Source of the DNA: Ignavibacteria bacterium
GTDB taxonomy: Bacteria > Bacteroidota > Ignavibacteria > Tepidaquicellales > Tepidaquicellaceae
Direction: 5' to 3'
Assembly: GCA_028714695.1 (NCBI GenBank)
Contig: JAQTLX010000005.1
Coordinates: 1 to 64,000, forward strand
DNA length: 64,000 nucleotides
Part shown: one piece after another, positions 36,742 to 56,178 of the stretch
Layout: every line of letters begins with the position of its first letter
Position numbering within the stretch: the stretch's first letter is position 1
Made by a program: the position numbers and the translations under genes
Notes under the pieces: model-generated
What the model was told of the DNA's origin: nothing
Seen by the model: only the letters and a program-made list of their open reading frames with translations
The model's database searches: none

Positions 36742-39700
36742 TTATCTCAGGACTACAAGTTTTTGTATTTCGGAATGTTTTTCAGAATCTCCTTTAATGA
36801 GGAGGCGGTAGAAATAAACGCCGTTGGCAATATAATCGCCGTCAGCATCGCGTCCGTCCCATTGCACCTGATTGAATCCGACATTAGCCGGAGCAACAAT
36901 TTCTTTAATTACTCTTCCTGCGACACTGAATATTTTTATCCTGCATTCGCCTGGCATTTGATTGCCTGTAAGATTGAAAGTAAAGAGCGTATTGTCTTTC
37001 ATCGGATTGGGATAGTTATAGACATCCCTGAATGATGTTTCGTTTACCACATCGAGTACAAATTTTGCCGTATCGTAACCGCTGCCTTTTTCAGAAATCA
37101 GGTTCAGATAGTTCAGTCCGTTTTTTAACCGGGGAGTAAATTTTATGACGAAATTTCCTTTGTCGGTTTCTTTTGCTACTGTAGTTATCATCTGGGATTT
37201 TGAATATCCGTACAATGAAACGAACTGATTGTTAAGCATTACTCTGAAAAGCGAAGTATCGGAACTTAATAATTCTTCTATCGATTTGCCTGTCAGTTTT
37301 ATCAGCATGTCGGGAGTGGAACGAACATAATCATTTCCATACAGCCTTGTTCCGTCCGAATAAACTTCAGTCTGGAAATCCGCAAGAGAGCCTTTAACAT
37401 AGAATGAAGAAATTACCGAATTATTATAATCGTAAATATCGTTCTGGTTCAGCGGTTGGATTTCCAGAACAATCGCTATCTGGTTCAGATATTTTTTATA
37501 GATCGGCAGCCTGTTTACTTTGAACGAGGCTTTTACAAACATGGAACTGTCAACTTTCAGTTGAGTAAATATAGTATCCGACTTCAGCATTACCTTATTT
37601 CCCGCTCCGTCAAGTGCATAGAAATTTCTTATATGAGAATTAAGCGGTACGTAGCCTATATTATAATACATGCCTCCGATGCCTACACTGTCTCCCATAG
37701 TTACTATTGAATCGGACTTATATATTGAATTATTGTCAAGCGCAATTTCAGGAGGACCTACATATTTCAAATTCAGTCCTTTGTATAACGGTGATAGAAC
37801 TCCGTTTATCGTATCAATAGAAACTTTCGCTATAAGTTTTAACTGCGGGTACTGGAGTGCGTTTATTCCTTGAAGGTTAACCAGATTATTGGTTGTCACA
37901 TCATTCATCAGCATCGTTTCGTTATTGTTATGCTGAATTCCGATAACATCGAACTTTATGTTCGTATAAGGATTAAGCACCTGATTCCAGTTAAAGTTCT
38001 GCCAGGATTGAGCGGGACCGATAATATTCGTCATACTTCCTGCGGGAAACATGAAAGCCGGGTCCATTGAACATGTTGCAGGTACCCAGGGATTTAAATC
38101 AGGAAAATATGATTCAGAAACCAATTTGTTAGGTAAACTTCTATAACTTATAAAACTCCATCTTCCCCAATCCATTAGACTAACTGCATCACAAGATACA
38201 CTGCCGAACTGTCTTAAAACCGCTTTCGCGCTCGAATTTAATTCCGAACTAGTCCCTACAGGCACCTGTTTTAAAAGTACAAGGATATTCGTTGTATCGA
38301 ATGTGCTTAAATAATTTATGAGGGAATCTGACGATGTACTTGATGTAAAGGAAATATGCCTGAAATCAATAACGCTGCCCGTAAATTTCGTTACCTTGGC
38401 AATTAAAAGCCCGCTAACATCCGCATCGCTTATATAGTATTTAAGATATTTGTTTAATATCATGAAAGAAGGATTTGTCATGTTGTTACTAAAAGAACTC
38501 GACAGCACCTTGCCGATGTAGTTACTTAAAGCATAATTATTGTTAACCGCAGTTAAATTGCTGATTTCAAAATCCTGAGATTGGTTTTTTAAATATTTGT
38601 TTATGACGATTAGAGAATCGTTTGGCGTTCCGTTTGAGTGATAAGTGAAACGCCTGACAAGAGACCAGCCAAGCGTATCTGCGTTATTCATTATGGAGTT
38701 CAGTCTCCAGAAATACACTACGTTTGTATCTGTCAGCGGTAAATGAACTTTTATTTTTGTTTTGACCCCGACAATATTAGGTATCAAATAATTCTGCTGC
38801 ACCGATGAATTGAAATTAGCCGTAGTATCCATTTGGAGCATTAGTTTTAAAGAATTTCTTCTAATATCAACATTCGGATTTATACCGACGAACTCAACCG
38901 TATCCCTGTAAACCGATTGGTTGTTTTCAGGTTTCAACGGCACAAAGGAATAATTCTTGACAGTTAATGATACTGTAAGAATATTATTGGATTTATTATC
39001 CGAAGGATACCAGTTATCAGGATCGATACTTATTTTGAGCGAATAATCTCCTGCCGTATCAAAAGACAAATAATATCTCAATGTATCGATGAACCTGAAA
39101 CCATGAACAATTGTATCTTTTGTTTTATTCGGAATATTTCTTTTCAGTATCTGGAATCTGATCTTGCAGGAATCCGCATACAATCCGAGATTTTTCGGGA
39201 ATACGCTGAATGTAATATTTTTCCTTGCGGGAGGATTTTCATCTGATAAATTATAATCCTGATTTTGAATATCAAACTCGGGATGAACAGGCAGTAATAA
39301 TTTTAATGCAGGGTCGCCGAGCAGTCCGTAACAATTTATTGTATTACTCTTTGCGAAATCCGTTGTATCCACGCCGAGTGTAACAGAGGCGTATTTCAAT
39401 ATATCTCCTGTTCTTCTGAGAGTATCCAACGCTAACGCTTGTAACAGATAATCATTATATACGCCTCCTGTACCTGAAAAACTCCATCCCGAAGTTCCAA
39501 AAAATCCTATAGAACCTTTTCCGGGATAATAAGCAAATCTTTCTCCGAAACCTCTTGCATCAGGTTCAGCGCATTTTCCGGACAAACATGTCATACTGTA
39601 GACAAGCGGATATTTATCATTAGATAAGGCGCCGGGATCTTCAAAGGCGTTATTCCAGAAACCCTGACCTGCATGTGCAACGAAATTTACTATTAGGGCG

Positions 39701-41544
39701 CCTCTGTTGATTGATTTTATTATTGAATCGGGATAATTAAAAACAATTGCTCCCGAAGTATCGTTTAAAAATATTTTTACAGGATCGGATGCTAAAGGAG
39801 CGGGCGAAATATATGAATTAATGAAATAATTCGATTGGGCTGCAAAACTTTGCTGTTCGTTACGATCATATCCGCCCGTTATAAATACGGGCTTTTTAAT
39901 CCAGGACTGAAGGGGCTGGCTTTCGTAATAAATAATTTTATTGACCATATCCTGCGCTTCCTGCGGCGTATAAGCAGGCAAACGACCAACAGCGACCTGA
40001 TGTGAAAAAGTGAAAGTACCTATTTTAAAGTTTGCAAAATAACCGTCCGTAATCGGGTTTCCATAAACAGGGACAAAATTCTGATAGTATACCGATGTAG
40101 TCAGGTATTTTTTCGGGTCCACCGAACCTCTCCCGAAAAGACAGAGATATTTAAATTTTGGCAGCGTCCATGTTTCATATACATTCTTTGTAAAATTTCT
40201 TACTGCAACAGGACTCTCCATTCCGTAATTAAAAATATCATATAAGTCTTCTATCTCCGCTTTAAAAGTCCTGAAACCGTCGTGTGTATTCCTGTATGCT
40301 CTTAGTTGTTCTGCCTGACTTTCGAACAATTTATTGTAAACAATCAGATAATCCGTCCCGGTACTGTTTGTTACCAGCGGCGGAACCTGTCTTTGTTTTA
40401 TTCTGAACGGCTTATTTGTAATTTGTTTGTTGTTTATTTCGTAATTTCCGTTTCCTTTTCCTACAAAGAACAACGTATCATTTGATATACTGTAATTTAT
40501 TATTCTGTTCCCATTCTTTGTGTCATAAATCGATACCGGATTGGAAGGAACAACGCCTTTTACATAAAAGATCATGGGCGAATTATCGGTTAATTCGCTG
40601 GGAATACTGATATAATTACTTTCAAACTCAAATCTTTTTGCAACGGTTAACTCAAAATAATCGAACCAGATCAATAGACTTGTAGTAATAGGCAAATACC
40701 TCACCAAGAAAGAATTTGCGCCTGATGTCAACGCAGAACCGGAAAAATATAAGGTCGTATCAAGACGGTTTAAATTATCAAATCTGACTGTATCGAACTG
40801 TGTACTGTTTATTTTTATAACAAGACGGTGTTCATTAAAAATATTGGGGTTCTGAGAATATGGGTAAGCAAATAGTTTCAGACGACACTGCTGAGGCGTA
40901 TTAGACGGAAGGTTTACGGTAAACGGCTGTGAAATAGAATTATTATTCGCAAGGTATGTCCAGTACCAGCCCTCACCCTTGTATTTATCATTCAAAAAGT
41001 TTTCATTATCCAGCGTACCTGTGTTTTGCCCGAGCGAATAATACTGCTCCTTTTCGAAATGCAGTTTCTGATAGTAATAATCCAGCGAATAATGAACTGA
41101 CGAAGAATTGTTGTAGTCTGCAAACCGAAGTCCTTGCGCCCCTCCCCAGCCAATCCAATATACGGAGGTATCGGAATACAGATTATAATACTCGTTAGTT
41201 GTGTACGCGATATTGCCGCTAATGTCATACGTATTCGTCAACCCGCCGTAATTTCTTATCCCATAAAAATCGAAATAATCCGCATCATCAAAGACACCGT
41301 CACTCTCGCCATAAAAATAAATCGGAGTCTGATTTCCCTTATAATAAACTTTTACAGTTCTCGGATCGATGGATGCGACGCTTATTCCTGCATTAACAAA
41401 ATCATTCTTGTCTATCCTGTACATTCCGTCGTTTACAACGTACATCTTCAGGTAAACCTGATTAGGCGTAATCCAGTTATAATTTTGGGAAAAAACGGAA
41501 TTTACTCCCAGCAAATAAATTAAAACGGCTAATATTCTTTTCAT
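36742..41544 (-). CDS. Gingipain-family C25 peptidase with T9SS tail (PorU-like), copy 1
   Basis: A 1600-residue secreted protein: signal peptide (MKRILAVLIYLLGVNSVFSQ), a PorU-type N-terminal region (NWITPNQVYLKMYVVNDGMYRIDKNDF), and a C25 domain at about 398-760. The presumed catalytic pair is His near 624 (NFVAHAGQGFWNN) and Cys near 653 (SMTCLSGKC). Long beta-rich repeats follow, then a type A sorting domain over the last 85 residues (NYPNPMKDN...NGVYFYRLLIKG). Members include gingipains and the T9SS sortase PorU. Having its own tail suggests secreted cargo or a PorU2-like sortase; I cannot decide. The ATG overlaps the stop of the next protease in ATGA. 23% longer than classical PorU if that is about 1150-1300 residues. 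Confidence 0.85.
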   Translation of the reverse strand: MKRILAVLIYLLGVNSVFSQNYNWITPNQVYLKMYVVNDGMYRIDKNDFVNAGISVASIDPRTVKVYYKGNQTPIYFYGESDGVFDDADYFDFYGIRNYGGLTNTYDISGNIAYTTNEYYNLYSDTSVYWIGWGGAQGLRFADYNNSSSVHYSLDYYYQKLHFEKEQYYSLGQNTGTLDNENFLNDKYKGEGWYWTYLANNNSISQPFTVNLPSNTPQQCRLKLFAYPYSQNPNIFNEHRLVIKINSTQFDTVRFDNLNRLDTTLYFSGSALTSGANSFLVRYLPITTSLLIWFDYFELTVAKRFEFESNYISIPSELTDNSPMIFYVKGVVPSNPVSIYDTKNGNRIINYSISNDTLFFVGKGNGNYEINNKQITNKPFRIKQRQVPPLVTNSTGTDYLIVYNKLFESQAEQLRAYRNTHDGFRTFKAEIEDLYDIFNYGMESPVAVRNFTKNVYETWTLPKFKYLCLFGRGSVDPKKYLTTSVYYQNFVPVYGNPITDGYFANFKIGTFTFSHQVAVGRLPAYTPQEAQDMVNKIIYYESQPLQSWIKKPVFITGGYDRNEQQSFAAQSNYFINSYISPAPLASDPVKIFLNDTSGAIVFNYPDSIIKSINRGALIVNFVAHAGQGFWNNAFEDPGALSNDKYPLVYSMTCLSGKCAEPDARGFGERFAYYPGKGSIGFFGTSGWSFSGTGGVYNDYLLQALALDTLRRTGDILKYASVTLGVDTTDFAKSNTINCYGLLGDPALKLLLPVHPEFDIQNQDYNLSDENPPARKNITFSVFPKNLGLYADSCKIRFQILKRNIPNKTKDTIVHGFRFIDTLRYYLSFDTAGDYSLKISIDPDNWYPSDNKSNNILTVSLTVKNYSFVPLKPENNQSVYRDTVEFVGINPNVDIRRNSLKLMLQMDTTANFNSSVQQNYLIPNIVGVKTKIKVHLPLTDTNVVYFWRLNSIMNNADTLGWSLVRRFTYHSNGTPNDSLIVINKYLKNQSQDFEISNLTAVNNNYALSNYIGKVLSSSFSNNMTNPSFMILNKYLKYYISDADVSGLLIAKVTKFTGSVIDFRHISFTSSTSSDSLINYLSTFDTTNILVLLKQVPVGTSSELNSSAKAVLRQFGSVSCDAVSLMDWGRWSFISYRSLPNKLVSESYFPDLNPWVPATCSMDPAFMFPAGSMTNIIGPAQSWQNFNWNQVLNPYTNIKFDVIGIQHNNNETMLMNDVTTNNLVNLQGINALQYPQLKLIAKVSIDTINGVLSPLYKGLNLKYVGPPEIALDNNSIYKSDSIVTMGDSVGIGGMYYNIGYVPLNSHIRNFYALDGAGNKVMLKSDTIFTQLKVDSSMFVKASFKVNRLPIYKKYLNQIAIVLEIQPLNQNDIYDYNNSVISSFYVKGSLADFQTEVYSDGTRLYGNDYVRSTPDMLIKLTGKSIEELLSSDTSLFRVMLNNQFVSLYGYSKSQMITTVAKETDKGNFVIKFTPRLKNGLNYLNLISEKGSGYDTAKFVLDVVNETSFRDVYNYPNPMKDNTLFTFNLTGNQMPGECRIKIFSVAGRVIKEIVAPANVGFNQVQWDGRDADGDYIANGVYFYRLLIKGDSEKHSEIQKLVVLR

Positions 41545-44500
41545 TTTAAAACTACTAATTTCTGCAATGCTGTTTCTTTCTTATTGTTTCCCTCAATAAT
41601 CAACTTATACAAATATACGCCATTTGCGATATAATCGCCATCCGCATCTTTGCCATCCCAGTGAATCTGGTTATATCCGATACTTAAATTAACATTCATT
41701 GTTTTAATAACGCGCCCGGCGACCGTGAAAATTTTCAATTTTGCACCCGAAGGCGGTGTACCGCCTGATAGATTTATCAGGAAATATGTTTCCGATTTCA
41801 TCGGGTTAGGATAATTTTTGAGGTCGGCTATCTTTAATTCGGGATTTACAGTCATTAAGTGCGTAACTGTATCGGAATAATTTCCGTTTGCATCTATAGA
41901 CGTAAATTGAAATGTGTGATCTCCGTCAGACAAAGAAGGATTATAGTATAAAGTTGCTTGTAGCGATTTTCCGGCCGGGAAGACAATATCGATAAGGGGA
42001 TTTTTAATACCGTTAATATAATACCATACAATAGTATCATCAAGTTTCACGCGGATGTTTGAAGTATCTTTTATAAATATTTTGCTGTCATCGAGAAACT
42101 TCAATACGATGTGCGGCTTTGCGGCAATAAAATCTCCGCTCATGCCTCTCACGCCGTCGTATGTAATTTCCATTTGCGGCTTGAGTGTGTCGCCTGCCAG
42201 TACTATTCTTGTTACAGCAACATTATTATATGTATAAAACTCATTTTGTCTTATCAATGATGTTTCAAAGTAAACAGTTACAGTGTCAAATCTTTTATTT
42301 CTGTCTCTTAACCCTGCAGTAGGAAGTTTAACGGATGACAATGTCATGGAATCTACATACAACGTGTTATAAACCGTATCGATCCTCAATAATTTTATGC
42401 CTGAAGGCGAAGAGGCAGACCATTTATTTATATAAGACGTTGCATTCGCATATCCGAAATTTCCGAATCGTACGGATACTCCGAGAGTATCTCCCTCCTG
42501 CATAATACTATCGCTTTTTACAACCGAATTATTATCGGCAATTATTTCAGCAGCAGGAGTATAATTGAATTTTAAATTATTCAGAACAGGCGATACCAGT
42601 CCGTTAAGCGAATCCATATAAAGTTTCGTAACAAGTTTCATTGACGGATATGTGAAAACATTAAACGAATCCAACCGGACTCCGGAATTATTTGTCAGAT
42701 TACTTAAAAGCAGAACACTCTGGGACGACTGATTCACACCGTAAACATCAAATGACAATCTTGTGTTCGCCGGGATTACATTCGACCAATTGAAATTTGA
42801 CCATGTTCGGGCCGGTCCGAAATTATGATAAACATAAGCCGAATCGTAGTAAAACACTGGCTGCATCGAACAGATTGCCGGATTAAATGCCGCATTATAA
42901 CTCTCGGCATCGATTGTATTCGGCAGAGTGGAATAATTAATGAAACTCCAGCAGGAATACGACTGAACATTTACGGAATCTATGTATGTACTTCCAAGTA
43001 TTTTTATTCTCGACCTTAAACTGCTGTTAATGTTAAAATTTGTATTATACGGCGAAGTCTTCAGAATTATTAGAATATTATTATCCGTAAATGTATTCAG
43101 GAAATTTATTGCGGAGTCATTTGACTGTGAAGTCGTGAAACCAAAATGCATCTTCTCAATAAGCCTTGCGTTTGTTTTGTTTATCTTGATTATGTTCAGG
43201 CCTCCCCATGAACCGGTATCCGACAATTGATATTCATTATTATTTATTACGAATCTTGTCATGTTGAATAGATTATTTCCCCATGACTGCGCTGTAATGC
43301 TTCCGGTAAATTTGCTTACAACTATGCTGTCATTACCTCCCGAAGCATGCATCAAATCGCTTAAATTATACTGGCTGATTTTTTTCCTGTACAGCGTAAC
43401 TATCCTGTCGGTTAAAGCAATTTTGCTCTTTGGGTCCGGCGCACCTATTCTTGAACTGAAAAAAGCGGAATTCCCGTAAATAAATCTTCGCGTGTCCGAC
43501 CATCCAGATGTATCGGTATTATTTATAATGGAATTCATTCTCCAGAAATAAACCGTGTTACTGTCTTTCACAGGAATGCTGTAACCGAATTTCGTAACTA
43601 AGCCCTGAGGATTCGCAACAAAATATGTCCTGCTCAAAGAGGAATTAAAAGATGAAGACGTATCCACCTGAAAAAGAAGTTTGACATTATTCCCGCGGCT
43701 AACGTTTGGATTTATTCCGGTAACTGTCACCGTGTCGCCGCTTACAAGTTCATCATTGACCGGTTTCAGCGGCAGGAATGATGAATTTTTCAGATTTATG
43801 GAAAATGTTATCGAGTTATTTGTTTTTATTTCTTTCGTATTCCACCGGTCGGGGTCAAGGTCAATCTTCATTGAATAATTTCCTGCTGAATCCAGCGAGA
43901 ATAAATAGGAAACGGTGTCGATGAAACCGAACCCGTGAACAACAGTATCCTTTAATTTGTTGTTTACATTATTTTTTATGAGAGTAAATCTTATTTTAAT
44001 GGAATCGGAATATATTCCGAGATTCCTCGGATATATTGTAAGAATCACAGGCTCTCTGACCGACGGAAAAGGATTTGATAACTTATAGTTTGACTGGTCA
44101 ATAGCATACTCCGGATATTTCGGCATAAGCAGATTTGCCGCGGGATCTCCGAGCAGGCTGTAACAATTAATTGTATTTCTTGATGCAAAACTAATAGGAT
44201 CCGCGTATAATCTTCCGGATGCAAGCCGCAATATATCACCGATTCGTCTTATTGTGTCCCTTGCAAATGTTTTTATGAGGTAATCATTCAACGTGTTTCC
44301 GGACCCGGAAAAACTCCAGCCCGTAGTACCTATAAACCCGACAGCGCCCCTGTTATTCAGATTAATAAAATTTTCACCAAAACTTCTTACATCCGATTCT
44401 GCGTTTTTCCCTGTGTAGCATGTCATGCTGAGTATTAGCGAAAGCCGGTTCTGATTAGCAAGAACACCGGGATCTGTCAAGCCGTTATCCCATGTTGTAC

Positions 44501-46400
44501 TTCCGGCATGCCCGATAAAATTGGTTATCAAACTGCCCCTGTTCATTGCATTTTTAATTGAATCCGAATAACTGTACGTAACACCTCCGGCAGAATCATT
44601 TCTGTAAATTCTTACGGGATAGCCTGAAACGGGCGGCGGGAATATATAATTGTTTACGAAAACATCAGACTGAGCGGCAAAAGTGATTTGCTCCTGACGG
44701 TTTTGTCCGCCGGAAATATAAATGAAATTCTTAAAGAAATTTTCCGGATTTGACGATTGATTTTCGTAGGCAATGGTTTTATTAATGATATTATTTGCTT
44801 CCTGCTCAGTCAGCGCAGGAATTCTTCCGACTGCAATCTGTGGATGATAGGTCGACGAATTTAAATTGAAGTTTGCGAAGTAACCATCCGAAGGAGGATT
44901 ACCGTATACCGGCACTAGATTCTGTGTATATATTGAAGCCGGATAATTTCCTTTCGGGTCAAGCGAACCTCTTCCAAGCAAACACAAATACCTGAACCTC
45001 GGCTGCTGCCAGTTTTCATACGCGTTCTTTGTGAAATATCTGACAGCGACAGGACTTTCCATGCCGAAATTAAAAATATCATATATATCTTCGATTTCGG
45101 CTTTGAATGACCTGAGAGTATCATGCGAACCCCTGTATTGCCTTAATAATTCAGCGGAAGATTCAAGAATTTTATTATAAACAACCAGATAATCCGCACC
45201 GCCAGTATTTGTAACAAGATTAGGAACCTGTCTTTGTTTTATCCTGAAAGGTTTTTTGGTAATATACTTATTGATTACTTCGAACTTCCCGTTTCTTTTT
45301 CCAGAAAAGATAAGCGTATCTGCATTGCTGCTGCTTGCCGTAATTCTGACATTGTTTTTAACGTCATAAATATTGACTTCGTTCGACGCGGTATATCCCT
45401 TTATTTTATAAATATTAGCGGTAGTATCAGTGAAAGATGCGGAATACGAAATTGAATTGTCCTGAAATTCAAACCTTGCAGGATACTGAATATTAAAAAA
45501 ATCAAAATACATATAGCCGTAATATCCTCCGGCGCCTCTATAAGTAACCGTCACCTGATTTTGCCCCGGCAGCAGCAAAGCAGATGAGAAAGATATTGCA
45601 GTATCGATTCTGTTGTAATCGTTGGTGAATAAAGTATCGACATTTGTGCCGTTAATTTTAATAATCAGGCTATGTTCGTTGTACACAGTGTCAAGAAACG
45701 AATTCGGATATGCGAACAATTTAAAGAGACAATTTTGAGGCGTAGGATATAAATTCGTCAAATCAAATACCGCGGTAAGGGATGCGTTTTGAGGAGGATT
45801 TAACTGCTTCCAGAACCATCCTTCGCTCGATATTTTCTCCGTATTAAAATTTCTGTAATCATCGTTCGACCTGTGTTCACCAAGCCAATACACAGAATCC
45901 TTTTCAAACTGCCTCTTGATATTATAGTATTGATTCGGATATGGCACGAACGAAGTAAAGCCGTAATCGGTAAACCTGAGACCGTATGCTCCGCCCCAGT
46001 CTATCCAGTAAACCGAGGTATCCGAATAAAGATTGTAATATTCATTTGTTACGTAGTCGACAACGTTGACGGTGTCCATCGTTGCTTTATAGGTAATTGT
46101 TGAATCTCCGTAATTTCTTTTGCCGTAAAAATCGAAATAATCATTGTCGTTAAAAACGCCGTCCTGTTCGCCGAAAAAATATATAGGTATTTGGGCGCCT
46201 TTGTAGAGTACTTTTACTGTACGCGGGTCGATGCTGTTTGCGTTGATTCCTGCATTCGTAAAATCAGACTTATTGATTCTGTAAATTCCGTCATCGGATA
46301 CATACATTTTAAGGTATGTCTTATTCGGAGTTATCCAGTTAAAATTCTGGGCAAATGCGAAATTCGCGGACAATATGAGAAGGATTAAAATACGTTTCAT
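41541..46400 (-). CDS. Gingipain-family C25 peptidase with T9SS tail (PorU-like), copy 2
   Basis: A 1619-residue paralogue of the adjacent protease, colinear throughout: signal peptide MKRILILLILSANFAFAQ, N-terminal NWITPNKTYLKMYVSDDGIYRINKSDF, C25 domain with His near 631 (NFIGHAGSTTWDNG) and Cys near 661 (SMTCYTGKN), and a C-terminal sorting domain (NYPNPMKSE...ANGVYLYKLIIEG). The two copies differ markedly outside the catalytic region, so the duplication is old. Its ATG lies 4 bp after the stop of the WecG-like glycosyltransferase, placing the pair in the glycan operon. Substrate unknown. Confidence 0.85.
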   Translation of the reverse strand: MKRILILLILSANFAFAQNFNWITPNKTYLKMYVSDDGIYRINKSDFTNAGINANSIDPRTVKVLYKGAQIPIYFFGEQDGVFNDNDYFDFYGKRNYGDSTITYKATMDTVNVVDYVTNEYYNLYSDTSVYWIDWGGAYGLRFTDYGFTSFVPYPNQYYNIKRQFEKDSVYWLGEHRSNDDYRNFNTEKISSEGWFWKQLNPPQNASLTAVFDLTNLYPTPQNCLFKLFAYPNSFLDTVYNEHSLIIKINGTNVDTLFTNDYNRIDTAISFSSALLLPGQNQVTVTYRGAGGYYGYMYFDFFNIQYPARFEFQDNSISYSASFTDTTANIYKIKGYTASNEVNIYDVKNNVRITASSSNADTLIFSGKRNGKFEVINKYITKKPFRIKQRQVPNLVTNTGGADYLVVYNKILESSAELLRQYRGSHDTLRSFKAEIEDIYDIFNFGMESPVAVRYFTKNAYENWQQPRFRYLCLLGRGSLDPKGNYPASIYTQNLVPVYGNPPSDGYFANFNLNSSTYHPQIAVGRIPALTEQEANNIINKTIAYENQSSNPENFFKNFIYISGGQNRQEQITFAAQSDVFVNNYIFPPPVSGYPVRIYRNDSAGGVTYSYSDSIKNAMNRGSLITNFIGHAGSTTWDNGLTDPGVLANQNRLSLILSMTCYTGKNAESDVRSFGENFINLNNRGAVGFIGTTGWSFSGSGNTLNDYLIKTFARDTIRRIGDILRLASGRLYADPISFASRNTINCYSLLGDPAANLLMPKYPEYAIDQSNYKLSNPFPSVREPVILTIYPRNLGIYSDSIKIRFTLIKNNVNNKLKDTVVHGFGFIDTVSYLFSLDSAGNYSMKIDLDPDRWNTKEIKTNNSITFSINLKNSSFLPLKPVNDELVSGDTVTVTGINPNVSRGNNVKLLFQVDTSSSFNSSLSRTYFVANPQGLVTKFGYSIPVKDSNTVYFWRMNSIINNTDTSGWSDTRRFIYGNSAFFSSRIGAPDPKSKIALTDRIVTLYRKKISQYNLSDLMHASGGNDSIVVSKFTGSITAQSWGNNLFNMTRFVINNNEYQLSDTGSWGGLNIIKINKTNARLIEKMHFGFTTSQSNDSAINFLNTFTDNNILIILKTSPYNTNFNINSSLRSRIKILGSTYIDSVNVQSYSCWSFINYSTLPNTIDAESYNAAFNPAICSMQPVFYYDSAYVYHNFGPARTWSNFNWSNVIPANTRLSFDVYGVNQSSQSVLLLSNLTNNSGVRLDSFNVFTYPSMKLVTKLYMDSLNGLVSPVLNNLKFNYTPAAEIIADNNSVVKSDSIMQEGDTLGVSVRFGNFGYANATSYINKWSASSPSGIKLLRIDTVYNTLYVDSMTLSSVKLPTAGLRDRNKRFDTVTVYFETSLIRQNEFYTYNNVAVTRIVLAGDTLKPQMEITYDGVRGMSGDFIAAKPHIVLKFLDDSKIFIKDTSNIRVKLDDTIVWYYINGIKNPLIDIVFPAGKSLQATLYYNPSLSDGDHTFQFTSIDANGNYSDTVTHLMTVNPELKIADLKNYPNPMKSETYFLINLSGGTPPSGAKLKIFTVAGRVIKTMNVNLSIGYNQIHWDGKDADGDYIANGVYLYKLIIEGNNKKETALQKLVVLK

Positions 46401-46404
46401 AATA

Positions 46405-47139
46405 TTACGTATTTTCTTTTTTTATTATTAAATTAACCTTTTGTTTGATAATTTTAAATATAAAAATTGGATTTTGAATTATATATCTGTTCCATAATCT
46501 CGCAGGTTCCTGAAACAGACGGAAAAGCCATTCCAGTCCCAGGTTCCTTATAAAGTTTGGGGCGCGCTTTTTCACACCTGCCAGGTAATCAATTCCGCTT
46601 CCTGTTGCAATAATCACTGGAACATTTATTTTATCTTTATTTTTAATAATCCATGCTTCCTGATCCGGAGTACCGAGTGCAACCAATAAAATATCTGCGC
46701 CGGATGCGTTTATAATACTTATATCACCTTCCTGGTTCATTGGCTTAAATAAGAACCCGCATATTTTGCTGTTTTTCCCGAATTTTTTCCCCAGAATTTC
46801 TTTTGTTTTTTCCGGACCTCCCAGAATAAAATAATTATAAGATTTATCGCCCGTGAAAAGTTTGAAGTATAAATCGGTACCGTTGACCCTTTCCGTCCGT
46901 TCGGTTTGCTTATGAAGAAACTTTGAGGCTATATGAACAGCAATACCGTCAGCATGCACAAGATCGAATTTTCGAAGGCATTCATCCAATGATTTATCTT
47001 TTAAAGAATAGTTGCAAAGATAAGAATTGGCGTAAGCAACGGTAAATTTTTCTTTCTTCTCCGTTTTTTCGAGTATCATTTGCAATATTACGGGGTATAC
47101 AGTAAATGTTATCTCCGTATTTAGTATTCTATTCTTCAT
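46405..47139 (-). CDS. WecG/TagA/CpsF-family glycosyltransferase (GT26)
   Basis: A 244-residue enzyme that transfers a sugar (often N-acetylmannosaminuronic acid or ManNAc) to a lipid-linked GlcNAc. Family landmarks are VHADGIAVHIASKFL, ERVNGTDLYFKL, DILLVALGTPDQEAWI and the C-terminal GLEWLFRLFQEPARLWNRY. The donor cannot be told. It overlaps the GT9 gene by 4 bp upstream and is followed 4 bp later by the C25 peptidase, so methyltransferase, GT9, GT26 and both peptidases form one unit. Confidence 0.9.
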   Translation of the reverse strand: MKNRILNTEITFTVYPVILQMILEKTEKKEKFTVAYANSYLCNYSLKDKSLDECLRKFDLVHADGIAVHIASKFLHKQTERTERVNGTDLYFKLFTGDKSYNYFILGGPEKTKEILGKKFGKNSKICGFLFKPMNQEGDISIINASGADILLVALGTPDQEAWIIKNKDKINVPVIIATGSGIDYLAGVKKRAPNFIRNLGLEWLFRLFQEPARLWNRYIIQNPIFIFKIIKQKVNLIIKKENT

Positions 47140-48059
47140 TCAACTTTAAGTAAAGTTCTGACCTCAGGTATAATATGTTCAATCTTAATGTCTTTCATCG
47201 GGTTAATCCGGACGTAATTTTTATTGCCGCTGCCGAGAACTGACATGGGATTCGTTGGGCCAAAAATACTCAACATATTAACGCAAGAGGCTTCAGCCGG
47301 ATGAAGCAGAAACGAATCAACCGTTATGAATAACTTTGAATTGATAATTTCGTTTAATATTGTCCGAAATTCGTAATTTATCGGAAAGCGAAATCCTGCT
47401 TTTGCGCTCGAAAATTCACCGTAAAAATCCAGAACAGTGACTTTTAAAGAATATACATGTATTAGATATTCCGATAAATCTTCAACAAGATCTTTGTTTA
47501 GCGACCGGTTTTTTTCTCTTGATGAGAAATTAATTACTACATCCTGACCTCCTGACCCGAAATCGACTAATGGAACATTAAGCGGGAGTTTTTTTATTTC
47601 GTTATCAGTACTCGTTACAGCGTCAACAATAATTTTTATCCTGTCGAGATAATTCATATCCGGCTCCCAGGCAATCTCCAGATTTTCCGTGTTATAATAA
47701 ACGCTCTGAGAAGTTTTGTACCAGTCCTCCACCTTTAATAAATTTTTATAAAAATATTTATTCGCGGATTTGGACTGCTTTACAAGAAGCGTGTTCATTC
47801 TGCCCGGGAAAAAAGAAAAAACATAATCATATTCCCTCGTTCTTAAAAACGACCGCGATTTAAATAACTCCTTTGCTCCTCTTCCTTCCAGATAATGGAC
47901 TTCATTGAAGTTCGTAAAAGGAATGAATATTTCGGAATCTTTTATTGTGACAAGATCGAATGAAATATCGTTAAAGTAATTTCTTAACGGTTCCATAGCC
48001 GAACAGGACAAATACGTATCGCCAAGTGCATTTGCGGATATTATCAGTACTTTAATCAT
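47136..48059 (-). CDS. Glycosyltransferase family 9 (heptosyltransferase-like)
   Basis: A 307-residue protein with the GT9 start MIKVLIISANALGDTYLSCSAMEPLRNYF and the typical donor-binding end KLFITVDSFLLHPAEASCVNMLSIFGPTNP. GT9 enzymes add heptose (ADP-heptose donor) or related sugars to LPS core. It overlaps both neighbours by 4 bp (ATGA), which implies translational coupling. The GmhB-like protein elsewhere in the window could supply heptose, though that is speculative. Confidence 0.85.
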   Translation of the reverse strand: MIKVLIISANALGDTYLSCSAMEPLRNYFNDISFDLVTIKDSEIFIPFTNFNEVHYLEGRGAKELFKSRSFLRTREYDYVFSFFPGRMNTLLVKQSKSANKYFYKNLLKVEDWYKTSQSVYYNTENLEIAWEPDMNYLDRIKIIVDAVTSTDNEIKKLPLNVPLVDFGSGGQDVVINFSSREKNRSLNKDLVEDLSEYLIHVYSLKVTVLDFYGEFSSAKAGFRFPINYEFRTILNEIINSKLFITVDSFLLHPAEASCVNMLSIFGPTNPMSVLGSGNKNYVRINPMKDIKIEHIIPEVRTLLKVE

Positions 48060-48697
48060 GTAATCCTCCTTGCAACTATATATTCTGCAAACCCTAATAA
48101 ATCCCAGAATGCACTGCCTCTTACGTAACCGTGTACAAAAATCGATTTAACAACCATGTATGGAATTCCTATTATACGGAAAAAATCTCTTTTTATTCCG
48201 CTCTTCAGAATTTCAAATCCGGATTTTATTAATATGTCTTTCAATACGTCTATTTTATAAAATCGTTTGTGTGTCGGATCGTCATAAAAATTCAAAGTGC
48301 CCTTCATTGACGGAAATTTTGCGGATTTTTCGGCAGGATATTCTATGTAAAAAACACCGCCGATTTTAATTTTTTCCGCCAGTCTTTCGATTACTTTTTC
48401 TCCGTTTTCTATATGTTCTATAACGTGCGCAATTACCAAATAATCATAATAACTGTTTGCCAAAGAATTTAAATCGTCATTTTCAGGGTCGAGAATATAA
48501 AATTTATTAATCAAACCGATGCTTCGTAAGGACAAATTACAATCTTTGGTTTTATCAAGTCCGTCATAAATATATCCTTTATTATATTTAAAGAACATAA
48601 TCGGACTGTCATTTCCTACCCCTGCTTCGAGAACATTTATACCGCCTGATTTGATTAATTTAACATATTTATATTTATAAGGTGCTAATAAAGCCAT
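48056..48697 (-). CDS. Class I SAM-dependent methyltransferase
   Basis: A 213-residue protein with a Rossmann-like methyltransferase core: VLEAGVGNDSPIMF (SAM motif I), DYLVIAHVIEHIENGEKVIERL (motif IV/V region) and GGVFYIEYPAE. It probably methylates a sugar or polymer end in the glycan pathway, by position; the acceptor is unknown. It is the first gene of the minus-strand glycan/C25 unit, divergent from the GT2 gene at 48868 across a 170-bp AT-rich spacer. Confidence 0.83.
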   Translation of the reverse strand: MALLAPYKYKYVKLIKSGGINVLEAGVGNDSPIMFFKYNKGYIYDGLDKTKDCNLSLRSIGLINKFYILDPENDDLNSLANSYYDYLVIAHVIEHIENGEKVIERLAEKIKIGGVFYIEYPAEKSAKFPSMKGTLNFYDDPTHKRFYKIDVLKDILIKSGFEILKSGIKRDFFRIIGIPYMVVKSIFVHGYVRGSAFWDLLGFAEYIVARRIT

Positions 48698-48867: not shown

Positions 48868-49818
48868 ATGATAACCGTATTACTGCCGACATACAATAAT
48901 TCCGCTTATATAGAATCATCTATAGAAAGCATACTGAACCAGACTTTTAAGGAATTCGAGTTGCTTATTATAGATGACAGTTCAACCGATGACACCGCCG
49001 CTAAAATAAAAGAATTTCACGATGACAGAATAGTATTGTATGAAAATGATGAAAATAAGGGACTTGGAAATACGCTAAATATAGGACTAAATATTGCAAA
49101 ACACGACATTATTGCAAGAATGGACGCAGATGATATATCGCTTCCCGAACGATTAGCGATTCAGTACAATTTCATGAATGACAATAAAGACATCGATGTT
49201 CTTTCATGCCATTACGCAATGATGTGTAACGGAAAAATCCGATATACAGTCAAAACTCACACCGAACACGCGGATATCAAAAGAAGGCTTATACTTCATT
49301 CCGAAATTATGCACCCCGGAACTATGTATAATAAAGACAAAATCATAAAATACGGCGGATATAGGGACATTTATGTGGAAGATTATGAAATGTGGCTTAG
49401 AATGAAAGATAAAATTGTTTTTCACAATCTTCCGGAGATACTGCTAATTAAACGTTATCATGATAAGTCTATTTCCTTTAATTCTCAAAAAAGAGATGAT
49501 TCGGTTTATTCATTCACCGGGAAATATTATCTGAATTTACAAACGGAATTCGGGATAAAACAAAACGAGGAGAATATTTATAAAGGCTGGAGAGAATATT
49601 TTTACGGCAGCAAAAAATCGGCAAGAAAGTACTTTATCAAACCAATTTCCAATTTACTTAAATCTCCCCGTGTCTTTGCGGCTTATTTCATTACTTTTCT
49701 TAACGACAAGAACTTTTTGAGATTTAAAGAATTAAGATTACGATTCAGGCTGTCTTATTATCTGCACTATTTTTCGAAAGAAAACAAAAAGGCGAGAAAA
49801 TTTTCCGATATTCTCTGA
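48868..49818 (+). CDS. Glycosyltransferase family 2
   Basis: A 316-residue GT-A enzyme: TVLLPTYNNSAYIESSIESILNQTFKEFELLIIDDSSTDDT at the N-terminus, then the metal-binding RMDADDISLPERL. Later come YGGYRDIYVEDYEMWLRM and a C-terminal region without membrane helices. Sugar and acceptor are unknown. It is the only plus-strand gene between 48868 and 54528, ending 4 bp before the convergent GT4 gene; divergent transcription begins from the 48698-48867 spacer. Confidence 0.9.
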   Translation: MITVLLPTYNNSAYIESSIESILNQTFKEFELLIIDDSSTDDTAAKIKEFHDDRIVLYENDENKGLGNTLNIGLNIAKHDIIARMDADDISLPERLAIQYNFMNDNKDIDVLSCHYAMMCNGKIRYTVKTHTEHADIKRRLILHSEIMHPGTMYNKDKIIKYGGYRDIYVEDYEMWLRMKDKIVFHNLPEILLIKRYHDKSISFNSQKRDDSVYSFTGKYYLNLQTEFGIKQNEENIYKGWREYFYGSKKSARKYFIKPISNLLKSPRVFAAYFITFLNDKNFLRFKELRLRFRLSYYLHYFSKENKKARKFSDIL

Positions 49819-50888: not shown

Positions 50889-52115
50889 TTATCCTGATTT
50901 TGTTTCGTACAATTTTTCGTAATTTTCCGACATACGGCTTAACGTGAATTTAAAAGCGTCATTATTGATTACTGAAGTGCTCTTTTCAATATAAAATTTA
51001 CGGCGGATTAGTTCCGCAATTTCAACAACGCTCATGTTCTCTGTATTCAGAATATTCCCGTAACCCGAAAGTATCTCTTCGTTCCCCCCTTTAGTATCGG
51101 AGATAATGGGAATCCCTGCCGATACCGCTTCTAGCATAACAAGGTCGAATATCACCCTGTCCGACAGCATTATTAAGGCGTCGGAAGATTTCATGAGTTT
51201 TATTATATCAGTATGTCCGATTTTTCCGGCAAGTTTTATATTCCGGATAAGACCTGACGTTTCAATTGCCGACTTTATATTCTCAGTCAAAGGTCCGCAG
51301 CCGGCATTTATCAGAAGCGGATTTTTTCCGGTTTGCACCAGTTCGTAAATAACCGCTATAATCTTATCGATATTTTTCTGCCTCACATGCGCCGCAATAT
51401 TCAGAAACACGGCATCGTGCTCATTTAAATAACCGTATTGCTTTAGTATATCTGTATCGGGTTTAATGCCGTCAACCTCTTCTTTGTTTATGCCGTTGTT
51501 TATTATTCTTATGTCCTTGTCAGTCTTTATCATGCCTCTGTAATCATTTAAAAACAAATCTTTTGCAAAACATCCCGGGAAAGTAATAACATCCGCATTA
51601 TTAAAGGCTTCAATTTCTCTTCTCTTAAGTTCCGGCAAATAGTTTTTAACGAAAGTATTGTTATGTACGGCATCTGTCCAATCATTCTCAATCGAACCGT
51701 TGCCGTGTATTGTCAGTATCTTAAATGCATCTGTTTTATTCCTGAAATAATAGTGCGATAAAGTGTCATGCGAATGTATAATATCCGAATTGATTTCATT
51801 TGCCCGTTTTTCAAAAAACGTGTCCCTGAGTTTAAAATGTCTTTCAAGATAAAGCCTGTTTGTCGTAATTTTCTTGTACAAATTAGAGTTGTAGTAAAGA
51901 AAATCAGTTACGCTTTTCTTTAAATTTATTTTTATCGGTTTATCGGCGTTCTTATTAATCGCTTCGATATAATTTTTATACGAAAGAAACGATGGCATGA
52001 ATTTATTTGTGTTCAGGTTCGATAATAATTTTAATATAATATTATTCGGTCCTCCCTGGTTTTCGTTCGGAATCCCGTCGAATGAAGTAAATAATATTTT
52101 TCTTCTGTTTTTCAA
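50889..52115 (-). CDS. Glycosyltransferase family 4
   Basis: A 408-residue GT-B enzyme. FDGIPNENQGGPNNIILKLLSNLNTN at the N-terminus, IIHSHDTLSHYYF, VFLNIAAHVRQKNIDKIIAVI and SSDALIMLSDRVIFDLVMLEAVSAGIPIISDTKGGNEEIL near the C-terminus. It overlaps the UDP-galactopyranose mutase gene by 4 bp, so it could act on galactofuranose-bearing glycan, but family 4 does not itself show that. Confidence 0.86.
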   Translation of the reverse strand: MKNRRKILFTSFDGIPNENQGGPNNIILKLLSNLNTNKFMPSFLSYKNYIEAINKNADKPIKINLKKSVTDFLYYNSNLYKKITTNRLYLERHFKLRDTFFEKRANEINSDIIHSHDTLSHYYFRNKTDAFKILTIHGNGSIENDWTDAVHNNTFVKNYLPELKRREIEAFNNADVITFPGCFAKDLFLNDYRGMIKTDKDIRIINNGINKEEVDGIKPDTDILKQYGYLNEHDAVFLNIAAHVRQKNIDKIIAVIYELVQTGKNPLLINAGCGPLTENIKSAIETSGLIRNIKLAGKIGHTDIIKLMKSSDALIMLSDRVIFDLVMLEAVSAGIPIISDTKGGNEEILSGYGNILNTENMSVVEIAELIRRKFYIEKSTSVINNDAFKFTLSRMSENYEKLYETKSG

Positions 52116-53200
52116 AATCGTTTTGAAAATTCATTTAAACATTGAGCGACAACCTGACCTATGTCATAATATTGAAATGAAGGGTGCATTCCCGCAAAAA
52201 TCACATCTTTAAGATTATGTGCTGCACTCATATACTTTTTATAAATTTCAAGAGATTCGGCAGTTCGCCTGGGATAGAAACGTTCGCCTTCTTTTGAGGC
52301 GAATTCCCTGCAAATGGTTGTGCTGTCGGATTTCTGCCCCGTAATATGTTTAAACTCCGTAATCCTGTAATACGGTTCGTTCCCGGGAAAATTGATAACG
52401 GAATTATCCTGAAAAATCTCTTTCCTGTGGTTTTCAAAAACCAATTTTATCGAACGGTAAGGAAGTCTGCCGAATATGTTTTTGAAATATGAATCAATCG
52501 GTCCTGTATATATAATGCTTGCGTAATGCTCGGGTTTTACTTTTTCGAATTCCGTTTCAAGCCGCACGTCAATATTTTTATTGTCCAGTAAATTCTGTAC
52601 AAGATTATTATAGCCCTTTTCGGGCATATACTGATAATCATCGGTAAAATATCGGCAGTCATCGTTGTACCTGACGTTTATTCTGCCGCATACATTCGGA
52701 GTCAGGTTACGGGGATGTTCAAACCAGATTTTCTCCGTGAATTTTTCGAAAAATTTTACGTAAAGGTCACTTCCTACGCGGTTTAACATAATATCTTCCG
52801 AACTCACAACAGGATGAATATTTGATTTCACATTTTCCAAATACTTCTTTGTTTCTTCGCCGCTCTTGAGTTCAAGTCCATAAAGTTTATTTATTGTTAT
52901 CCTGTTTACCGGAATGGGATAATCCTTTCCTTCTATCCTGGAAATGACTTTGTGTTCATATTTTCTCCATGTTGTGAAATTCGACAAATAATCAAACACG
53001 GACTTATCGTTTGTATGAAATATGTGCGGGCCGTACTTATGCACAAGAATACCGTTTTCATCGGTATAATCGTGAGCATTTCCTCCGATGTGATTGCGCT
53101 TATCGACAACGAGTACTTTTTTGTTAAGAACCGAAGCGATTCTTTCCGCCATCACCGCGCCTGCAAATCCGGCGCCCGCTATTATGTAATCATATTTCAA
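52112..53200 (-). CDS. glf: UDP-galactopyranose mutase
   Basis: A 362-residue flavoenzyme that interconverts UDP-galactopyranose and UDP-galactofuranose. It shows the FAD fingerprint YDYIIAGAGFAGAVMAERIA, the KRNHIGGNAHDY and KYGPHIFHTND motifs and the C-terminal IFAGMHPSFQYYDIGQVV. Presence of Galf in the organism's surface polysaccharide is the natural reading. It overlaps the flippase gene by 4 bp on one side and the GT4 gene by 4 bp on the other, so all three are co-translated. Confidence 0.95.
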   Translation of the reverse strand: MKYDYIIAGAGFAGAVMAERIASVLNKKVLVVDKRNHIGGNAHDYTDENGILVHKYGPHIFHTNDKSVFDYLSNFTTWRKYEHKVISRIEGKDYPIPVNRITINKLYGLELKSGEETKKYLENVKSNIHPVVSSEDIMLNRVGSDLYVKFFEKFTEKIWFEHPRNLTPNVCGRINVRYNDDCRYFTDDYQYMPEKGYNNLVQNLLDNKNIDVRLETEFEKVKPEHYASIIYTGPIDSYFKNIFGRLPYRSIKLVFENHRKEIFQDNSVINFPGNEPYYRITEFKHITGQKSDSTTICREFASKEGERFYPRRTAESLEIYKKYMSAAHNLKDVIFAGMHPSFQYYDIGQVVAQCLNEFSKRF

Positions 53201-54396
53201 ATTTCCGATAAAAGGTTTTTCTTTTTAATAAATATAACCATTAAGAATAAAACAACAAGTTCGGTTGTCGCTATTGCCAGCGAGGTTCCTATTGCCTTGA
53301 AGACCGGAACAAATATAAAAGATACTATAAGAAAATAAAACAGCGATATTAAAATGATTTTTAAAAATTCCCTCTTGTATCCCATATTCAGGATTGTCTG
53401 TACGCCGAAAAGATTATTCAAAGAGAGAAATAACGGAACAAAAGAAAGTATGCGGAGAAGAATTACGGTATCAGAAAACTCGGCACCGAATACGATTCGC
53501 ACAATCGGTTCAGCAAAAACGAATGCGATAACCGTTGCCGCCAATGATACTGCACCGATTAATTTTGCAGATGTCTTAATCATGTCAACGCCTGATTTTC
53601 TGCTCTCTGCAAGAAGAAACGATATTCTGGGATAAGTGCTTTCGTTAAGATTTGATACGAGCCCCGTAATACCGGAAATGATTTTATCCGCCGCGGAGTA
53701 GAAGCCCACTATTCTGTAGTCTGCAAAAACACCGAGAAGAAAAACGTTCGCGTAATTATAAATGCTTGTGCAAATAATCGAATAGAATACTTCAAGTCCT
53801 TCCTTGAAATTCTCTTTCAGTACTGCGGCGGGAGGAAATTTAAATCTGTATCCGTATTTTACTGCCACAATCAAAACACCTGCAATACCCAGCAGCACAT
53901 TTCCCGCATTCAGTATAAGCGCATAAATGACCACATCATCTCTTTTTAACACTAATACAAATATTAACACTGTTGTGACAGTCCTTACTATTATGTTCGG
54001 GACTGCAATATACATCATTTTTTCCATCCCTTTGAAGAACCAGTACGGGAAGAGAATATTGCCCAAAAGTGTACCGAGGCTGATATAGAAAATAATCTTT
54101 TGTTGAAACAAATCGCCGAATATGTAAATAACGGGAATAAAAATAAGAAGACTTAATAGAAACAAAGATGATTTCAAAACAAATACCGTATTATACAATT
54201 CGCGGCATTTTTCTATATCATTCCTGTTCTTTGCAATATCCCTGTTTCCCGTAAAATTAAACCCGTAATCGCTTATAATTACGAAAAAGCCTGCAAATGC
54301 CGCAGCAAAATTTACAAGCCCGAAATTACCCGGACCCAGAACTCTCACAACATAAGGCACCGAAATCAACGGTATAACCACATTGAATATCTGCAA
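53197..54396 (-). CDS. Polysaccharide flippase (Wzx/RfbX-like)
   Basis: A 399-residue membrane protein with 12 predicted helices, N-terminal PLISVPYVVRVLGPGNFGLVNFAAAFAGFFVII, then GNRDIAKNR, matching the oligosaccharide flippase (MOP superfamily) family. It moves undecaprenyl-linked repeat units across the inner membrane. Paired with the Wzy/ligase-like gene that starts 132 bp away in the opposite direction, it completes a Wzx/Wzy-type system. The next gene (glf) overlaps its stop by 4 bp. Confidence 0.88.
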   Translation of the reverse strand: MQIFNVVIPLISVPYVVRVLGPGNFGLVNFAAAFAGFFVIISDYGFNFTGNRDIAKNRNDIEKCRELYNTVFVLKSSLFLLSLLIFIPVIYIFGDLFQQKIIFYISLGTLLGNILFPYWFFKGMEKMMYIAVPNIIVRTVTTVLIFVLVLKRDDVVIYALILNAGNVLLGIAGVLIVAVKYGYRFKFPPAAVLKENFKEGLEVFYSIICTSIYNYANVFLLGVFADYRIVGFYSAADKIISGITGLVSNLNESTYPRISFLLAESRKSGVDMIKTSAKLIGAVSLAATVIAFVFAEPIVRIVFGAEFSDTVILLRILSFVPLFLSLNNLFGVQTILNMGYKREFLKIILISLFYFLIVSFIFVPVFKAIGTSLAIATTELVVLFLMVIFIKKKNLLSEI

Positions 54397-54528: not shown

Positions 54529-56178
54529 ATGACTATAAAAACCGTAAAATATTCCGGCCTTATATTATTCGCAGCGTTTTTAATATTGCTGGCAGCCGGT
54601 TCGATTCAATATGGCAGGGCGGATATTTTAACGTACTATGTTTTCCTATCCTCATTTTTCTTTTTGTCGTACTCCGTTTTAAGGTATTCGGAATATAAAA
54701 TCACTAAATTCATATTTTATACTTTGCTTGTTTCGGGAGTTATTCTTCCTGTTTATGGATTATTCAACATACTGATTTATAATACAGGCAGGGCTTCCGG
54801 TTTGCTTGGCGATCGTGTTTTTGAAGCCGATGCCGCCGCAGGCATATTAATATTTTTAATGTGCACATTTCTGATATCGGATAAAAAGAATTATATCATT
54901 GCCTTTACAGGCGGCGCTGTATTTTTATGCCTTTCGTATATAATTCAGTTAAAGGTCAGAACCGCTTATGTGGCTGTTTTTCTTTCCTTTTTATTTCTTG
55001 CCGCGTTTCTGATTAACCGAAGAAAATCATGGGGTAATGAAATAATTCCGAAATTGAAAATTCGTGTTTTGCTGCTTTCGGGAATAATATTGTTGTCTTT
55101 ATTTACTTCAATATATAATCCCTCTCCAGCCTCAAAGAAGGAAAAGGGAACAGGCGAGACAATTACAAGTATTTTCAGATCAAGCGAAGTTTCTAATCTC
55201 GTACGTTTGTATTTCTGGGATGCTTCCTTTAAAATGTTTATTGAAAGACCGCTAACAGGTATTGGACCCGGAATGTGGACAGGAACATTTCCGAAATACT
55301 ACGGGCAATTATATAATGACAGGAATATAGACATGAATTCATCGCTAAATCCGCATAACGACTATCTGGAATTTATTTCCGAATTCGGGATTGCCGGTTT
55401 GTTCTATACGTTGTTCATGGCGGGCGGATTTATTTTACTTTTCAAAAAATCGCTTAAAGATTTTTCATATCTGCCGTATTTGTTTCTTGTCTTTTGTTTT
55501 TCCATTACTTCTGTATTTAATTTTACGAAAGGCGGCATATTTTCGGTTCTATTGCTGCTAATATCTCTTGCGATTGCTTATTCCGGAGGAATATCTTTAA
55601 ACAAGCGCGGAAGAAAAATCAATAACCTTATTTTTTATTCTTCCTCAGTATTGCTTTTGCTGGCGGCAGTATTGCTTGTTATAAGAATGTTCCTGCAGAA
55701 AAATTATCTTGAAGCAATGAATCTAAAAGCAAAAGGCGATTACGGAAAAATGCTCGCTAAACTTGATGGAATATATAAGCCTTTATATCCTGTCGATATG
55801 AACGGAATACCTCTGGATTATTACAGGGGCGCAGCATATTTCGAATTAAATGACTATGAAAAAGCCTTTATCTGCTCGGATAATGCGGTTAAACTGATGC
55901 CGCAATATCCTTCATTATTAAACAATAGAGCCTCTGCTTTGTATAAAACAGGCAGAGTGACTGAATCAATAGAATCGTTCCGTTATCTGGAAAAGGTTTT
56001 TCCGAATTATGCAGAGCCAAGAATCAACCTGCTTGCAATTTATACCAATGAAAAAATGTACGATGAAGGCTTAAAATGCCTGAATGATATTGAGAAAGCC
56101 GGACCCGAACGCGAATTCATTAAAAATTATATTGTATTTCTTGAGATTAAGAAATACTTTGAAAAAATGAAACTATGA
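54529..56178 (+). CDS. O-antigen polymerase/ligase-like protein with TPR tail
   Basis: A 549-residue protein: about ten hydrophobic helices (residues 10-385), a large loop with GIGPGMWTGTFPKYYGQ...LNPHNDYLEFISEFGIAGL, the Wzy_C signature, and a cytoplasmic or periplasmic TPR-like C-terminus from about 400 to 540 (YFELNDYEKAFICSDNAVKLMPQYPSLLNNRASALYKTGRVTESIES). Wzy_C proteins polymerise or ligate O-antigen; choosing between the two needs experiment. It overlaps the T9SS protein gene by 4 bp. Confidence 0.85.
   Translation: MTIKTVKYSGLILFAAFLILLAAGSIQYGRADILTYYVFLSSFFFLSYSVLRYSEYKITKFIFYTLLVSGVILPVYGLFNILIYNTGRASGLLGDRVFEADAAAGILIFLMCTFLISDKKNYIIAFTGGAVFLCLSYIIQLKVRTAYVAVFLSFLFLAAFLINRRKSWGNEIIPKLKIRVLLLSGIILLSLFTSIYNPSPASKKEKGTGETITSIFRSSEVSNLVRLYFWDASFKMFIERPLTGIGPGMWTGTFPKYYGQLYNDRNIDMNSSLNPHNDYLEFISEFGIAGLFYTLFMAGGFILLFKKSLKDFSYLPYLFLVFCFSITSVFNFTKGGIFSVLLLLISLAIAYSGGISLNKRGRKINNLIFYSSSVLLLLAAVLLVIRMFLQKNYLEAMNLKAKGDYGKMLAKLDGIYKPLYPVDMNGIPLDYYRGAAYFELNDYEKAFICSDNAVKLMPQYPSLLNNRASALYKTGRVTESIESFRYLEKVFPNYAEPRINLLAIYTNEKMYDEGLKCLNDIEKAGPEREFIKNYIVFLEIKKYFEKMKL

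Follow-up and report, generated by a model that had tools for sequence, protein, structure and literature searches.

The two long C25 peptidase genes described here are linked to glycan synthesis, and this link is well supported: a gene for a WecG/TagA/CpsF glycosyltransferase lies directly ahead of them, and this adjacency recurs across the order and the class, which argues for more than chance. The name C25L is used for the long C25 family that includes both proteins (copies A and B). The reading that we favour, with a probability of about one half, is that C25L is an accessory type IX secretion system (T9SS) sortase-like transpeptidase or processing protease that works with an undecaprenyl-PP-linked glycan.

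Gene organization and surrounding glycan cluster

The genes lie in the window, the whole stretch of 64 000 nucleotides of an Ignavibacteria genome that was analysed, where they close a five-gene run on the minus strand (36742-48697) that has a larger glycan cluster upstream of it. The features are as follows.

48056-48697, minus strand: SAM methyltransferase (PF13489, 35.8 bits); heads the run, not conserved as a partner
47136-48059, minus strand: GT9-like (heptosyltransferase-like) protein, weak match; a variable neighbour, not a conserved partner
46405-47139, minus strand: WecG/TagA/CpsF glycosyltransferase (PF03808, 144.8 bits; TIGR00696, 98.7 bits, cut-off 69)
41541-46400, minus strand: C25L copy A, 1619 residues with a signal peptide, PorU/PorU2-like (PF01364, 215.9 bits)
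36742-41544, minus strand: C25L copy B, 1600 residues, tandem paralogue of copy A (PF01364, 211.5 bits)
48868-49818, plus strand: divergent GT2 glycosyltransferase of the surrounding glycan cluster (domain search), retained in the same-genus locus L020
49823-54396, minus strand: glycan cluster including two GT4 enzymes (GT4 by domain search)
52112-53200, minus strand: UDP-galactopyranose-mutase-like protein (label from sequence reading; homologues beside other C25L loci)
53197-54396, minus strand: Wzx-type flippase-like protein (label from sequence reading; homologues beside other C25L loci)
54529-56178, plus strand: O-antigen ligase/polymerase with TPR
56175-57155, plus strand: T9SS type-A-tail protein

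A sequence-only reading of this DNA had described a methyltransferase, a GT9, a WecG-like enzyme and two C25 genes in one tightly spaced run, and the open reading frame coordinates and domain searches bear this out exactly. Neighbouring genes overlap by 4 bp at the methyltransferase/GT9, GT9/WecG and C25 A/C25 B junctions, and a 4-bp gap separates WecG from C25 A. WecG passes the curated cut-off for WecG/TagA/CpsF glycosyltransferases (PF03808, TIGR00696) and is the sole PF03808 gene in the genome. The gene labelled GT9 is present in the run, although its identity comes from a 22-bit heptosyltransferase match (E = 7e-5), the Pfam search of this protein having returned zero matches. Promoter and terminator scans found no clear excess over shuffled sequence.

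In the window the C25L pair is flanked by glycan genes and TetR, and no dedicated C25L cargo was identified within the window. The O-antigen-ligase-like gene and the small T9SS-tail protein (54529-57155) both have homologues between two C25L genes in genome G014 (L036:11782-14197). At the start of the window (1-667) a 135-bp unit is repeated in tandem (4.9 copies, 97% matches), with long open frames on both strands. WecA was considered as an enzyme of the pathway in this genome and rejected, as the only PF00953 gene is MraY; five matches to PF02397 enzymes are found elsewhere in the genome. Since WecA is absent, the primer for a WecG pathway would presumably have to be one of these PF02397 enzymes.

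Architecture and catalytic residues of C25L

The domains located in the two window proteins are as follows.

44130-45191, minus strand: C25 catalytic domain of copy A (residues 404-757), with His631 and Cys661
39298-40350, minus strand: C25 catalytic domain of copy B (residues 399-749)
42846-43313, minus strand: FAM3/POMGnT1-stem-like (ILEI) domain of copy A (residues about 1030-1185; PF15711, 30.5 bits)
38143-38412, minus strand: ILEI domain of copy B (residues 1045-1134; PF15711, 23.1 bits, under the cut-off of 27)
41544-42188, minus strand: C-terminal Ig domains and PorU-type tail of copy A (residues 1405-1619; PorU structure 6za2, Z 11.8, 21% identity; tail scores)

Alignment confirms the earlier statement that both proteins keep the catalytic His and Cys. 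All 49 long C25 proteins that were aligned, four of them from beyond the class, retain the Cys, and 48 retain the His. In the second C25L copy of genome G008 (L028:36-4937) the catalytic His is replaced by Lys, and this copy is possibly a natural inactive paralogue; the first C25L copy of the same genome is split into two overlapping frames. The architecture is consistent among the 12 C25L members scanned, all of which have the C25 and ILEI (PF15711) domains and 11 of which have the FlgD-type Ig domain of the PorU tail. Neither the C25 propeptide (PF08126) nor the type A cargo tail (PF18962) gave a Pfam match in the window proteins.

Both proteins do carry a T9SS tail of their own, as had been proposed, but it is of the PorU type and not of the cargo type. 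Copy A matches the TIGR04183 tail model weakly (26.5 bits, cut-off 23), and the tails of the window proteins score 133-170 against PorU tails (n = 13) and 49-91 against cargo tails (n = 7). A WDGxDxDG-type motif is found in 63 of 67 C25L tails, in all 13 PorU tails and in none of the seven cargo tails. The nearest solved structure is likewise that of PorU for both the C25 domain and the tail, with gingipain R a weaker match.

The ILEI domain was assessed from a structure model of copy A residues 781-1619, built from 65 sequences (mean pLDDT 86; 34 without the alignment). Residues 250-405 of the model align with the POMGnT1 stem (Z 19.8; 2.2 Å over 144 residues), with sugar-bound entries among the matches, and the same region aligns with FAM3 proteins (Z about 17). 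Profile searches with copy A match FAM3B (2.5e-15), POMGnT1 (1.7e-14) and PorU (1.9e-12), and copy A qualifies as having the FAM3/ILEI/POMGnT1-stem fold. The POMGnT1 and FAM3 domains bind GlcNAc and further sugars (PMC9802357). Copy A resembles them in fold (Z 17-20) but differs in the residues that contact the sugar: Arg129, Asp179 and Arg207 of POMGnT1 are Gly, Thr and Tyr in copy A. These contact residues are mostly replaced across copy A's order, are partly kept in other families of the class and are all three retained in each of the two ILEI domains of a KSB1 homologue. With these residues replaced, the window proteins may have another ligand or may have lost binding. No ILEI domain is present in the PorU or the two gingipain-like proteins of the same genome, or in two Bacteroidia PorU2 proteins (L052, L053); in a further PorU2-type protein (L054) the match is below threshold.

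Relationship to PorU, PorU2 and gingipains

The genome contains six C25 genes. PorU itself is encoded on contig C4 (L007:9257-18943), where it is duplicated in tandem (920 and 915 bits; NF033707 cut-off 420) immediately ahead of PorV, and the C25L pair was therefore rejected as the cell's own PorU. PorZ is found on contig C3 (338 bits, cut-off 260). With PorU and PorZ encoded by separate genes, C25L is an addition to the system. The two remaining C25 genes (contigs C1 and C10) have a propeptide and a type A cargo tail and encode gingipain-like secreted proteases. The genome also has eleven PorV/PorQ-family matches; two of these, on contig C1, precede by a few kilobases a glycan cluster whose last gene is a gingipain-like C25 (L009).

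The curated models place the window proteins near both PorU and PorU2. Copies A and B score 343.1 and 315.7 bits against the PorU model NF033707 (cut-off 420), and 353.1 and 357 bits against the PorU2 model NF052324 (cut-off 450). As all of these scores are below the cut-offs, neither model accepts the pair, and the proteins are called PorU/PorU2-like. In a quick tree of the C25 domain, the deep branches of which are unsure, 13 PorU sequences form one clade (support 99) and the window copies belong to another clade, formed by C25L proteins of the order (support 100). Copies A and B occupy separate branches within it, each with the matching copy of other genomes. The gingipain-like proteins of the same genome fall outside the C25L clade, with branches that are very long, and PorU2 proteins from outside the class are on long, weakly placed branches.

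The sequence-only reading had called the proteins PorU/gingipain-like and had named grouping with ordinary secreted gingipains as one outcome that would count against it. No such grouping is seen in the tree, the domains or the tails, and the proposal that C25L proteins are ordinary gingipains was rejected on the same evidence. The PorU-like half of the label is retained (structure match, tails and tree) and the gingipain-like half is not; neither protein is the PorU of the cell. The gingipain-like peptidases share the C25 domain with C25L, but those of this genome combine a propeptide with type A cargo tails and lack the ILEI domain.

PorU (NF033707; PDB entry 6za2) shares with C25L a C25 domain with its His and Cys and a FlgD-like C-terminal domain of the PorU type; by analogy, a lipid-linked sugar acceptor is proposed for C25L. 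C25L differs in having no C25 propeptide, in its added ILEI domain, in not lying beside porV and in scoring below the model cut-off. The best full-length model match is to PorU2 (NF052324, 'putative type IX secretion system sortase PorU2'), which resembles C25L in length (1650-1690 residues) and in its PorU-type tail. The PorU2 proteins of L052 and L053 lack the ILEI domain, however, and WecG is within 20 kb of PorU2 in none of the 52 PorU2 genomes outside the class. PorU2 of the Bacteroidia-type locus L052 adjoins PorV2, whereas no PorV2 lies beside the window pair; PorV2, seen only beside the one PorU2 examined outside the class, was rejected as a partner of C25L. The exosortase/PEP-CTERM and rhombosortase systems share with C25L the idea of a C-terminal sorting enzyme linked to polysaccharide gene clusters (PMC1569441; treated alongside the T9SS in PMC7468200), but these are unrelated membrane-embedded enzymes, while C25L is a predicted secreted cysteine peptidase with a T9SS-type tail.

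Conservation of the WecG-C25L pair

Among 39 related genomes (the window's own included), C25L is found in 37, and in 35 of these WecG is directly upstream, with a spacing between domain matches of at most 252 bp in 34 of the 35. In the two C25L-containing relatives without an upstream WecG the C25L genes are at contig ends or fragmented, and the two relatives that lack C25L also lack WecG. A survey of 149 genomes of the class gave C25L in 67, WecG in 75, both in 61 and neither in 68 (Fisher p = 6e-21 for co-occurrence, shared ancestry being ignored). WecG lies within 10 kb of C25L in 51 of the 67 genomes, representing nine families and always on the upstream side; it is on the same strand in 47 and divergent in four. 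The pair often overlaps by 4 bp. One family (f56) keeps C25L and WecG apart. The trees of the two proteins agree only moderately (distance correlation r = 0.65 within the order and 0.46 overall), and this correlation is not taken as proof of a link.

The arrangement is therefore not unique to this strain, and the expectation that the gene order would be conserved holds for its WecG-C25L core; the full five-gene order is found in the same genus only (L020). Before WecG the relatives have a GT4, a membrane GT-like protein, a methyltransferase or a GT9, and after C25L the genes are unrelated. A conserved role for the methyltransferase and GT9, which the sequence-only reading had treated as members of the unit, was rejected because the genes flanking WecG differ outside the genus; of the upstream genes, WecG alone is conserved.

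Among relatives that carry a name, most are Ignavibacteria, and some records belong to KSB1, Deferribacteres and Caldithrix. C25L of three KSB1-type loci (two of them titled KSB1, the third 'bacterium') follows a run of glycosyltransferase-like genes and starts 16-76 bp behind a PF00953 (WecA-type) enzyme, a placement that provides an independent tie to lipid-linked glycan synthesis. Several genomes of the window's family have extra C25L pairs behind three GT2-like genes, and single extra copies are found outside glycan clusters.

Two kinds of downstream gene were also observed. In family f2 (L025, L026, L029, L032, L033), the single C25L gene is followed directly by a T9SS type-A-tail protein of about 895 residues, with BNR/Ycf48-like and fn3 domains in the members scanned, which is a candidate dedicated cargo. 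Close downstream of C25L in L044, L045, L046 and L050 is a protein of 439-451 residues with a signal-peptide-like start and, in most members, an aromatic last residue; it is a possible outer-membrane partner and matched no Pfam family in the two members scanned.

Proposed function and alternative explanations

In the mechanism that we favour, C25L would be made with a Sec signal peptide, would cross the outer membrane through the T9SS by means of its PorU-type C-terminal domain and would be retained at the surface, where its His/Cys site may cut the tails from a subset of T9SS cargo. C25L would then most likely hand the new C terminus of the cargo to the glycan, or process glycan-bound proteins. 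The neighbouring enzymes could build this presumed glycan on undecaprenyl-PP, on lipid primed by one of the PF02397 enzymes and with WecG adding an early sugar, after which it would be flipped, extended and exported; the POMGnT1-stem-like domain may hold the glycan acceptor. For PorU of P. gingivalis, assembly of the acceptor sugar on undecaprenyl-PP has been proposed (PMC13086638), and this sugar is amide-bonded to the cargo C terminus (PMC7468200). Transfer onto the glycan, rather than plain proteolysis, is suggested for C25L by analogy. Several observations count against this reading: the POMGnT1 sugar contacts are replaced in copy A and mostly in its order, some C25L copies lie outside glycan clusters, family f56 has no WecG near C25L, the WecG and C25L trees agree only moderately, the genome has no WecA, and no dedicated cargo is seen in the window. 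The earlier idea of a dedicated glycan-plus-sortase system is partly supported: the glycan-protease link, present in nine families, is genuine and old, and the proteins are PorU-like and have a POMGnT1-stem-like domain, but the methyltransferase and GT9 drop out, and transfer to the glycan would be the proposed step.

C25 enzymes are chiefly endopeptidases, and C25L could instead be a surface protease that matures or trims glycan-displayed glycoproteins or matrix proteins without sugar transfer, its lectin-type domain serving for targeting only. The ILEI-type domain and the linkage to glycan genes are equally consistent with targeting of this kind; the PorU-type tail and the architecture, however, point to the T9SS attachment complex and not to a released protease, and we consider this explanation rather unlikely. 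The large size and many Ig domains of C25L, its tandem multiplication to as many as several copies in a genome and the one copy with His replaced by Lys (L028) would all suit a main client of the pathway, that is, a large surface scaffold or S-layer-like protein that bears or is anchored by the glycan and whose peptidase is secondary. Such a role seems improbable, as the Cys and His are nearly universal even in copies that are about 25% identical, which argues for retained catalysis. WecG and C25L might also merely share a glycan island or regulon and be functionally unconnected, as could be supposed from the C25L copies outside glycan clusters and the one family that separates the two genes. 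Yet the two genes stay together in nine families in which most of the surrounding genes vary, and 4-bp overlaps are frequent, so that we regard a purely positional association as very improbable.

The sortase-like reading places C25L in a known kind of protein, since a putative PorU2 sortase family has already been named by NCBI; what is new in C25L is the ILEI domain, the missing propeptide and the pairing with WecG. In the open-licence full-text literature, neither PorU2 by name nor WecG together with a sortase was found, and Ignavibacteria with a T9SS receive incidental mentions only. More tentatively, Ignavibacteria and KSB1-type bacteria might have a second, dedicated system for anchoring proteins to a glycan, in which a lectin-bearing C25 transpeptidase would link its own T9SS cargo to a polysaccharide that depends on WecG or WecA and differs from the A-LPS-type acceptor used by PorU. 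Beyond the oral Bacteroidia, no part of T9SS surface anchoring is less well known than the acceptor glycan, and the conserved pairing of a glycosyltransferase with a PorU-type enzyme names both an enzyme and a biosynthetic step to test. If the proposal is true, a sortase-like protease that brings along a lectin-type domain would show how the choice of acceptor may lie in the enzyme itself and not come from PorZ.
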